This document shows positions 693 to 23,911 of a DNA stretch of 34,227 nt, one piece after another. The DNA comes from Microcaldota archaeon (lineage in GTDB: Archaea; Micrarchaeota; Micrarchaeia; Anstonellales; Bilamarchaeaceae), in the NCBI GenBank assembly GCA_013425375.1, contig JACCLH010000083.1, positions 1 to 34,227 of the forward strand, in the 5' to 3' direction. Each line of letters opens with the position of its first letter. The stretch's first letter is position 1. The notes beneath the pieces are model-generated. The model had not been told where the DNA came from, did not search any database, and saw nothing but the letters and a program-made list of their open reading frames with translations. The position numbers were made by a program, and so were the translations under genes.

Positions 693-1082
693 ATGCGTAT
701 AGTGATATCGGAATCCAGCGGAAAGAGCTACCAGATAGAGCTCGCGAAGGACAAGGAATCCAGCCTGGCCGGAAAGAAGATAGGTGACGAGCTGGACGGC
801 AACCTGGTCGGCGCTGCGGGGTACACCCTCGAGCTGACCGGCGGAAGCGACAACAGCGGCTTCCCGATGCGCGTTGAGGTGCACGGCGCAGCGAAGAAAC
901 TCGTGCTCACCAGCGACGGAGTCGGCTTCAAGGCCAAGGACAAGGGTGCGCGGAGGAGGCGTTACATGCGCGGCAACACCTACTCCTCCGAGATAGTCCA
1001 GGTGAACACTAAAGTGAAGACGCCCGGCGCGGTGCCCCTGGAGCAGCTTTTCCCCAAGGCTGAGAAGAAGGAGACCAAATGA
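693..1082 (+). CDS. rps6e: 30S ribosomal protein eS6
   Basis: Family-typical sequence (SGKSYQIEL...GSDNSGFPMR...RRRRYMRGNT); adjacent to aIF2-gamma. Confidence 0.95.
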   Translation: MRIVISESSGKSYQIELAKDKESSLAGKKIGDELDGNLVGAAGYTLELTGGSDNSGFPMRVEVHGAAKKLVLTSDGVGFKAKDKGARRRRYMRGNTYSSEIVQVNTKVKTPGAVPLEQLFPKAEKKETK

Positions 1083-2272
1083 TGCAGGCTGAGATGAACA
1101 TCGGCATGCTTGGCCATGTCGACCACGGCAAGACCACCCTCACCAAGGCGCTCACGGGAAAATGGACCGACACGCACAGCGAGGAGATAAAACGCGGCAT
1201 TTCCATCCGCCTCGGCTATGCCGACGCTTATATATATCACTGCCCGAAATGCGATTTGTATTCGTCTGAAGCTAAATGCCCGAAATGCGGCGGCAAGCCC
1301 AAGCTCGCCAGGAAGCTGTCCATAGTGGATGCGCCTGGCCATGAGACGCTTATGACCACGGTCATAGCTGCGACCAGCATCCTGGACGGCGTGCTTTTCC
1401 TAATAGCGGCCAACGAGCCATGCCCGCAGCCGCAGACCACAGAGCACCTGCTCGTGCTGAATTCCACAGGCATAAAGAACGTCATAATAGTCCAGACCAA
1501 GATAGACCTGGTCACCAAAGAGAAGGCCATGGAGAACTACAAACAGATAAAGGCGTTCCTGAAGGGCACGGTCGCAGAGAACGCGTCCATAATACCCGTG
1601 TCTGCCAATGCAGGCCTCAACATGGATGCTCTGCTCAGGAAGATAAACGAGGTCATGAAGCCCCAGCCGCATGACGAGAAAGCGCCGCTGAGGATGTACG
1701 TCTCACGTTCATTCGATGTCAACAGGCCAGGTACATCTGTCAAGGACCTGAAGGGCGGGGTGCTCGGAGGTTCCATCGTCCAGGGCGTGCTGAAGGTCGG
1801 GGACGAGATAGAGATAAAGCCCGGCATAGTGCGCAAGGAAGGCGGGAAGCCGACCTCTGTGGTATGCAAGGCCCAGAGCCTGATGGAGGAGACCGAGGTG
1901 CTTGAGAGCGCCAAGCCAGGCGGACTTGTGGCGGTGGCCACGACCCTGGACCCGTCGCTCACGAAATCAGACGCGCTCGTCGGCTCCGTAGTAGGAAGGA
2001 AGGGCGAGGTTCCTGACCCTGTGGATACGCTCAACGTGAAGTATGCCTTGCTCGAGCGGGCCGACATGCAGAACATGCCATTGCGCGAGAACGAGCCCGT
2101 TGTGGTGAACGTTCATACCTGCACAGACGTGGGGATTCTGGTGAAGCTTTCCAAAGGCGTCGCCACCATAAAGCTGAAGAAGCCGACAGTGGCTTACAAG
2201 GACATGTATGTGGCCCTTTCCAGGAAGATAGGCCAGCGGTGGCGCCTGAGTGCCTGGGGCAAAGTGGTCTAA
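1079..2272 (+). CDS. eif2g: Translation initiation factor aIF2 subunit gamma
   Basis: GTPase motifs GHVDHGKTTL, DAPGH; zinc knuckle CPKCDLYSSEAKCPKCG; ATGA-type overlap with eS6. Confidence 0.97.
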   Translation: MMQAEMNIGMLGHVDHGKTTLTKALTGKWTDTHSEEIKRGISIRLGYADAYIYHCPKCDLYSSEAKCPKCGGKPKLARKLSIVDAPGHETLMTTVIAATSILDGVLFLIAANEPCPQPQTTEHLLVLNSTGIKNVIIVQTKIDLVTKEKAMENYKQIKAFLKGTVAENASIIPVSANAGLNMDALLRKINEVMKPQPHDEKAPLRMYVSRSFDVNRPGTSVKDLKGGVLGGSIVQGVLKVGDEIEIKPGIVRKEGGKPTSVVCKAQSLMEETEVLESAKPGGLVAVATTLDPSLTKSDALVGSVVGRKGEVPDPVDTLNVKYALLERADMQNMPLRENEPVVVNVHTCTDVGILVKLSKGVATIKLKKPTVAYKDMYVALSRKIGQRWRLSAWGKVV

Positions 2273-2309: not shown

Positions 2310-2486
2310 GCTGGGGTGCAGCTGACCGACGTTTCGGCCATCGCACCCCCAGCTACTGCGTGACTCATGTTTTCACGCTGGGGTTGTAGCTGGCCGGTGT
2401 TCCGGCCATCAAACCCCAGCTAAGCCAGACTCATGTTTTCACGCTGGGGTGCAGCTGACCGACGTTTCGGTCATCGCGCCCCCAGC
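2310..2486 (+). repeat. Three tandem 44-nt stem-loop units (2310-2353, 2377-2420, 2443-2486) at 66-67 nt period, in phase with the tRNA-Ser 5' end at 2510
   Basis: Each starts GCTGGGG and ends CCCAGC, with inner hairpins GACCGA/TCGGCC, GGCCGG/CCGGCC and GACCGA/TCGGTC; spacers end in ATGTTTTCAC like the tRNA 5' flank. Confidence 0.85.
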
Positions 2487-2509
2487 TACTGCGTGACTTA
2501 TGTTTTCAC

Positions 2510-2647
2510 GCTGGGGTCGCCTAGTCCGGTAGGGCGAAAGGTTGCTATCGCGCTTTTTAGTAAAAAGCGCCCAAAAACGGGCTGTAAAAAGCGTTGCGGA
2601 AACCTTTTGCGCGCAAGCGTCCGGGAGTTCAAATCTCCCCCCTAGCG
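2510..2647 (+). tRNA. tRNA-Ser(GCT), intron-containing
   Basis: Acceptor GCTGGGG/CCCTAGC, D-stem GCC/GGC, anticodon stem AAAGG/CCTTT, anticodon GCT at 2544-2546, long variable arm GCGC-GCAA-GCGT, T-arm GGGAG-TTCAAAT-CTCCC, discriminator G. Intron about 2548-2601 with BHB TTGC/GCGG, bulges TA^T and AA^A. Confidence 0.9.
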
Positions 2648-2739: not shown

Positions 2740-3117
2740 ATGTCATTCACAGAAAAGGTCTATTTTGCCTGCAAATGCATCCCGAAAGGCAAGGTCGCCA
2801 CCTACTCCCAGCTCGCCCGCGCAAGCACAAATTTTCGCAAAAAATTTGTGCGCATTGGAAATTCGGTTAGAATTTCCAATACAATAAACAAACCAAAATC
2901 CGCTCGTGCAATAAGTCGCGCGAACGCGTGTCGTGCAGTGGGCAACGCGCTCAACAAAAACCGTTCCCGCTCGGTTCCGTGCCATCGTGTCATAAGGAGC
3001 GACGGGACTGTTGGTGGGTTCGCGAGAGGAACGAGAGCGAAAATAAGGATGTTGCGGAGCGAGGGCGTGGAGATAAAGAACGGAAAAATCCCGCCGCGAT
3101 TCCTCTGCAGAATCTGA
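2740..3117 (+). CDS. Methylated-DNA--protein-cysteine methyltransferase family protein with a palindrome-encoded in-frame insert
   Basis: IPKGKVATYSQLARA...CRAVGNALNKN...VPCHRVIRSDGTVGGFARG; PCHR active-site motif present. Confidence 0.85.
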   Translation: MSFTEKVYFACKCIPKGKVATYSQLARASTNFRKKFVRIGNSVRISNTINKPKSARAISRANACRAVGNALNKNRSRSVPCHRVIRSDGTVGGFARGTRAKIRMLRSEGVEIKNGKIPPRFLCRI

Positions 3118-23651: not shown

Positions 23652-23911
23652 GGGGTTATGGCGTAAAGCCGGATGTGGCACGCAACCTGGTAGCGCGGCA
23701 GAGGCTTATTTTCGCTTTCTCAAGACGAAAATCTGTTGCCGAAGCTCCAGATCTCTCTTCTGCATAAGCAGAAGAATTTGTAGCCGCGAAACCTGCATGC
23801 CGGAGTTCAACGCGCCTTTTTAGTAAAAAGGCGCGCCCAAAAACGGGTGTGCTAAAAGCGCCCAAAACGGGCCGTAAATAAAAATGCGCTGAACAGATCT
23901 CCGTGACCCCA
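23652..23911 (+). tRNA. Heavily interrupted tRNA, probably tRNA-Trp(CCA)
   Basis: Acceptor GGGGTTA (23652-23658)/TGACCCC (23904-23910), discriminator A, D-loop AACCTGGTA, CTCCAGA anticodon-loop candidate (23745-23751), T-stem CGGAG/CTCCG. D-arm intron about 23667-23685 (BHB GCGT/ACGC) and T-loop intron about 23811-23896 (BHB GTTC/GAAC, leaving TTCAAAT). Anticodon-region insert borders unresolved. Confidence 0.65.

Follow-up and report, generated by a model that had tools for sequence, protein, structure and literature searches.

Hairpin units copying the ends of neighbouring tRNA genes in a family of Micrarchaeota, and their possible origin by duplicative insertion

Introduction

The window, that is, the whole stretch of 34,227 nt analysed here, is contig G000:C42 of a 1.1-Mb Micrarchaeota MAG (G000) which is 82% complete. 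Its tRNA-Ser(GCT) gene is preceded by three hairpin units, each of which begins with the first seven nucleotides of the gene itself. What are these units, and why would the end of a tRNA gene be copied repeatedly in front of it? The original prediction, made from the letters of this locus, regarded the units as resembling minimal RNase P substrates, possibly small RNAs released with the tRNA, or as degenerate tRNA duplications kept for their structure. We analysed the array and its counterparts in related genomes, which were searched with the array, then with tRNA upstream regions, a linker 11-mer and a covariance model of 21 units.

Results

Layout of the array

The features of the locus are listed in Table 1. 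Each unit consists of a copy of the tRNA 5' end (X1), an inner hairpin with a 4-base loop, a complementary arm (X'), and a linker of 22-23 nt ending in GTTTTCAC, and its total length is 66-67 nt. The unit starts and the tRNA start were confirmed at the predicted positions; the steps from unit to unit and from the last unit to the tRNA are 67, 66 and 67, and the array is in phase with the gene. GCTGGGG is indeed the start of each unit, but the closing complement is a full 7-nt CCCCAGC, of which only 6 nt had been quoted. Likewise, the inner stems described as GACCGA/TCGGTC and GGCCGG/CCGGCC are those of units 3 and 2, where the pairing is perfect, whereas unit 1 has GACCGA/TCGGCC with an A.C mismatch at the second pair. 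The folding z-scores were -2.1, -4.9 and -4.6 for units 1, 2 and 3, respectively, and -5.5 for the array together with the tRNA.

Table 1. Positions of the array, the neighbouring features of the window, and antisense units in the genomes searched
Feature	Position	Strand	Remarks
aIF2 gamma (archaeal translation initiation factor) gene, upstream	1079..2272	+	
TATA-like TTTAAA	2273..2278	+	37 nt upstream of unit 1; consensus inference
Hairpin unit 1	2310..2353	+	X1 GCTGGGG; inner GACCGA-CGTT-TCGGCC; X' CCCCAGC
Linker 1 (type A)	2354..2376	+	TACTGCGTGACTCATGTTTTCAC
Hairpin unit 2	2377..2420	+	X1 GCTGGGG; inner GGCCGG-TGTT-CCGGCC; X' CCCCAGC
Linker 2 (type A)	2421..2442	+	TAAGCCAGACTCATGTTTTCAC
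Hairpin unit 3	2443..2486	+	X1 GCTGGGG; inner GACCGA-CGTT-TCGGTC; X' CCCCAGC
Linker 3 (type A)	2487..2509	+	TACTGCGTGACTTATGTTTTCAC; adjoins tRNA 5' end
tRNA-Ser(GCT) gene with intron	2510..2647	+	RF00005, 39.1 bits; X2, the sequence copied in the units, comprises its first 7 nt
tRNA-Ser intron, about 54 nt, limits +/-1	2548..2601	+	Comparison with intron-less orthologues; carries dispersed hairpin sequence
Antisense units at tRNA 3' ends	G015:C3, G015:C24, G000:C14, G002:C4, G002:C12, G009:C17, G022:C40, G022:C54, G012:C11		

The aIF2 gamma gene is followed by TTTAAA, the three units and the tRNA, and in several relatives, too, tRNA-Ser lies downstream of this gene, with or without units. Micrarchaeota MAGs are among the closest relatives as judged by the same gene. 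The TTTAAA sequence is likely the promoter of the array and the tRNA, judging from its consensus. In the loci compared, a TATA-like box usually stands 33-43 nt upstream of the first unit, a spacing like that of tRNAs without units, and by this spacing the array would be inside the primary transcript, which supports the predicted co-transcription.

ARAGORN in default mode missed the tRNA-Ser at 2510-2647, which the Rfam tRNA model recovers. This tRNA was the sole match in an Rfam search of 2200-2720, and no known RNA family exceeded its gathering score for the units. No convincing kink-turn, C/D or H/ACA box was seen in the units by eye.

Orthologues lacking the intron place that of the window's tRNA-Ser after GCT-A. 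The hairpin in this intron (GCGCTTTTTAGTAAAAAGCGCCCAAAAACGGGC) is dispersed in the window's genome and its relatives, often in or near tRNA genes; the window has a related copy at 23811-23860, and the genome contains about nine others. It may represent a mobile tRNA intron family. A small ORF at 2740-3117 encodes the DNA-binding domain of O6-methylguanine-DNA methyltransferase, and within its coding sequence, at about 2826-2885, lie two near-perfect hairpins with the look of in-frame insertions ahead of an AVGNALNKN motif. The same genome carries a second array (L038:1-210, on G000:C60) with stems GCAGGGG/CCCCTGC, which runs to the contig end. The tRNA-Leu expected 3' of this array is missing from the contig, probably because the assembly was broken by the repeats.

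Copying of the tRNA gene's own end

In the related genomes the same unit design was found at Ser, Leu, Met, Gly, Cys-like and other tRNAs, and each unit copies the end of its own gene, which supports the predicted relation between the stems and the tRNA 5' end. In a table of 55 units, compiled by hand from loci found by model and pattern searches, 6.87 of 7 positions are identical between X1 and the gene's own end, and 6.16 of 7 are complementary between X' and that end. The observed score for this matching of X1 and X' with the gene was never reached by shuffled pairing in 20,000 trials. Exact cognate X1 and X' were present upstream of 5 of 71 tRNAs, compared with 0 of 3966 non-cognate combinations; when up to one mismatch per arm was allowed, the values were 15 of 71 and 55 of 3966. 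Direct-inverted-direct triads numbered 18 against 3 in the shuffle (0.83 Mb), and the whole structure was matched by 0 of 500 shuffles. The array of the window is far beyond chance.

The direct repeat usually starts at the mature tRNA terminus and in most cases extends 7-17 nt into the gene, so that the D-arm is reached in Leu units, whose second arm carries the complement of D-arm positions. The Ser units of the window and of G015 have CCCCAGC throughout, whereas the 3' strand of tRNA-Ser is CCCTAGC with a G-U pair. That is, the second arm corresponds to the 5' end in reverse complement and not to the tRNA's 3' strand, and the description of the units as degenerate tRNA duplications was wrong in detail.

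Distribution among relatives

The covariance-model search recovered the units with E-values down to 1e-18. At E <= 0.01, 16 of the genomes searched (40 relatives) had matches, every one of them a member of the window's own family; when 246 genomes of the phylum were scanned at E <= 1e-6, only this family gave matches. The model underestimates the range, because it includes the linker and the tRNA-Met of G029, from another family of the order, is preceded by a unit with a different linker.

Copy number varies. At tRNA-Ser there are no units in many relatives, one in G002 and G018, two in G009, three in the window and five in G015, two adjacent ones of which have the same sequence; thus, the array does not always precede tRNA-Ser. 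At tRNA-Met, the site is empty in G000 and occupied in G002, G007, G008, G009, G013, G015 and G022. Several of the genomes with a unit here are congeners of the window's genome. G022 belongs to another genus, and both its tRNA-Met and X1 read GCCGGAG. In the same way, tRNA-Ser and the unit of L205 both start with GCCGAGG. This tRNA-Ser (L205:1406-2100, from a Micrarchaeota MAG) contains very long hairpin-filled inserts in the anticodon loop and the T-loop, and has one cognate leader unit.

About nine units lie at tRNA 3' ends in antisense orientation (Table 1) and carry a copy of that end in reverse complement. Species share two of these positions, one between G000 and G015 and one between G009 and G015. 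A looser unit was also found in G020 upstream of an S10-like ORF (E 0.009), a weaker example with a divergent linker. Because of the 3' antisense cases and the S10-like case, a function confined to the pre-tRNA 5' leader is not the whole story. At L293:5315-5476, two units copy 17 nt of a tRNA 3' end (GCGACCGCCGGGAATTG, antisense), and the T-arm part is paired rather than the acceptor part. We also noted a second conserved type of tRNA leader, GAAGTTTGATgA...AAAcTTTaCC...GGaAAgTTTc (L028:700-830, L029:425-475, L030:630-690), with the direct-inverted-direct arrangement AAGTTT/AAACTT, sometimes between units and sometimes alone.

These observations bear on the view that the units have their shape as minimal RNase P substrates. 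The element occurs antisense at tRNA 3' ends and, in a looser version, before a protein gene; the copy, of up to 17 nt, may extend into the D- or T-arm; and neither a T-loop nor a CCA-like end is present in the units. Given the antisense occurrences at 3' ends and the missing T-loop, we rejected RNase P mimicry as the sole explanation. An acceptor-T minihelix does not describe the units either, in which an outer stem of 7-10 bp leads through an asymmetric internal loop to a hairpin with a tetraloop, and X' is followed by TACTG or TAAG. Loss of RNase P with an alternative processing route was also rejected: RNase P RNA matches were obtained in all 25 genomes searched, 12 of them, including G000, over the curated cut-off. 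With RNase P RNA available, the usual removal of 5' leaders is possible.

Pairing of the arms and the folding of the tRNA

In the covariance-model alignment, 94% of the outer-stem cells are paired and 4 of 7 pairs are changed on both sides; the stem covariation noted in the window is thus seen across units. The X1-X' mismatches in the 55 units comprise 22 A.C, 5 G.U and 25 others. Even transitions in X' predict about 63% G.U, and G.U was seen in 5 of 27 (P = 2e-6). An ordinary conserved RNA helix does not show such a pattern. The closer agreement of X1 than of X' with the gene is consistent with a block that arrives with an approximate X' of its own while the end of its target is duplicated.

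We calculated the effect of each arm on the tRNA by equilibrium folding of a few tRNAs. The partition function for unit 3 with tRNA-Ser gave an acceptor-stem pairing of 0.96 for the intact sequence, 0.12 with X1 scrambled and 0.07 with X' scrambled; the value was 0.92 with both arms scrambled and 0.99 without the unit. The two arms are therefore predicted to neutralise each other and so to keep the acceptor stem of the tRNA. Single changes in the context of unit 3 lowered acceptor pairing when placed in X1 (mean 0.76) but not in X' (mean 0.97). The greater sensitivity of X1 was likewise obtained for unit 2 and for the tRNA-Met of G002, and weakly for unit 1; the values for the Ser of G015 and the Met of G013 were ambiguous, and the Leu of G015 folds poorly even with its unit. 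By these calculations, neither arm would be easily lost alone once present, and X1 would stay closer to the tRNA than X', as is observed.

The linker

A conserved linker, TAMTGyGnnACnnATGTTTTCAC, adjoins the tRNA terminus. Linkers are about 0.70 identical whatever the tRNA or genome (0.48 when shuffled), and of the 10 linker matches in about 0.8 Mb of G015, 9 touch tRNA ends. This sequence of about 23 nt, often together with an AGCTG...CATC core, recurs at unrelated tRNAs. It can form a GTGnGAC...GTTTTCAC hairpin with 81% of cells paired, in which no covariation was found; its 3' side is invariant.

Discussion

We think that the units are DNA-level, terminus-specific duplicative insertions at tRNA genes of this Micrarchaeota family, followed by tandem expansion and entrenchment, and we give this reading a probability of about one half. 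A block made of the inner hairpin, X' and the conserved linker would insert exactly at a mature tRNA end, either 5' in sense or 3' in antisense orientation. The insertion would duplicate the terminal 7-17 nt of the gene and yield the order X1, hairpin, X', linker, X2 (the gene). At the 5' end the insert would sit in the pre-tRNA leader, which RNase P would remove, and slippage between the X repeats could then multiply the block into an array with steps such as 67, 66 and 67. The lock that we infer for its persistence is mutual: without X1 as its partner, X' would grab the 5' strand of the tRNA, and without X' as its partner, X1 would compete for the 3' strand. The insertion itself might be carried out by a recombinase or transposase, or might arise from template switching between tRNA loci. 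One observation counts against the simplest form of this reading, namely that plain insertion with target duplication leaves the block's partial complement of the target unexplained; to account for it, one has to invoke template switching, a donor tRNA locus whose end is similar, or selection at a later stage. The reading is also weakened by the lack of a candidate enzyme, since Cas1 had no match in the unit-bearing genomes searched and Y1/HUH transposases had none in most of them.

Could the units instead be functional pre-tRNA leader hairpins, which present the tRNA to RNase P or RNase Z, act as a folding chaperone, or switch between X1:X' and X':X2 pairing? The location of the array within the transcript, the compensatory stem changes (0 of 500 shuffles), a tRNA-Met unit kept across genera with its stem changed in concert, and the conserved linker with its possible hairpin all speak for such a role. 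We nevertheless consider it unlikely, since units are also found antisense at tRNA 3' ends, the same tRNA lacks a unit in many close relatives (as does the tRNA-Met of the window's genome), G.U intermediates are few in the outer stem, and the linker hairpin does not covary. Slightly less probable in our estimate is an origin by template switch alone, in which a fork stalled at a tRNA gene copies the gene end in reverse complement and then re-copies the end; there would be no mobile element, and the linkers would be alike by descent or convergence. A switch with a backward return point is expected to give exactly a direct-inverted-direct triad, triads also exist outside tRNA genes (the excess of 18 over 3) and upstream of the S10-like ORF, and template switching is a known maker and maintainer of RNA hairpins (PMC8794818). 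Such hairpins resemble the units in their local reverse-complement copy and near-perfect stem; unlike them, the units add a direct copy and a linker common to unrelated loci, and this sharing requires copying from locus to locus. No ancestor/descendant pair displaying a switch event was found among the loci compared, but the architecture fits.

Far less probable is that the units are what remains of integrative elements (tyrosine integrase or casposon type) with tRNA ends as their attachment sites. Duplicated tRNA ends are a hallmark of such integration in the model of tRNA gene disruption (Sugahara et al. 2012, PMC3293823), and in SSV/pNOB8-type att duplications, as in the units, a terminal fragment of the tRNA is directly duplicated around the insert while the tRNA remains intact (PMC3293823). 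Unlike these scars, the units have an insert of only about 60 nt with an inverted copy of the end, are arranged in tandem, and occur at many tRNAs per genome. Casposons also adjoin tRNA 3' ends, leave the gene unaltered and have target duplications of variable length (median 15 nt; PMC4046053), but the units are found at 5' ends as well, and no cargo was seen. Insertion by Cas1 is unsupported: PF01867 had no match in eight unit-bearing genomes (G000, itself 82% complete, G002, G005, G006, G007, G009, G013 and G015). To our knowledge, an inverted copy of the end within the insert is not a feature of either type of element.

REP/RAYT and other miniature palindromic repeats are short dispersed hairpins with a conserved foot sequence, and the units share these properties. 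However, the stem of the units varies with the target and sits at tRNA termini, and an HUH transposase is not consistently present: PF01797 (Y1_Tnp) is missing from G002, G005, G006, G007, G009 and G013, with a fragment in G000 and one interrupted copy in G015. An IS200/IS605 or REP origin is thus unsupported. Archaeal BHB introns are hairpins inserted in tRNA genes, and the unit-bearing genomes are intron-rich; in contrast to such introns, which we rejected as an explanation, the units lie outside the mature tRNA, precede a contiguous tRNA 5' end, and have no BHB motif by eye. The units thus lack at least one hallmark of each of the closest known kinds, with the template-switch hairpin, whose architecture fits, as a possible exception. 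We found no description of hairpin arrays copying tRNA ends in the open literature, subscription papers and preprints being outside the scope of this survey.

Returning to duplicative insertion, we tentatively suggest that the units belong to an undescribed class of minute elements, mobile or born in replication, that recognise exact tRNA gene ends, copy the target end into both arms of a hairpin, spread among unrelated tRNAs at either end, and become fixed by the mutual need of the arms. For tRNA annotation the units are a warning, because the repeats break assemblies and a copied tRNA 5' end sits upstream of the true one. They would provide a concrete case of entrenchment, in which an insertion is unable to lose one arm alone, and may link tRNA gene disruption, template switching and small mobile hairpins. 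For this lineage, whose tRNA genes are crowded with introns, they would mean that essential RNA genes are altered at their ends time and again by a change that copies its target.
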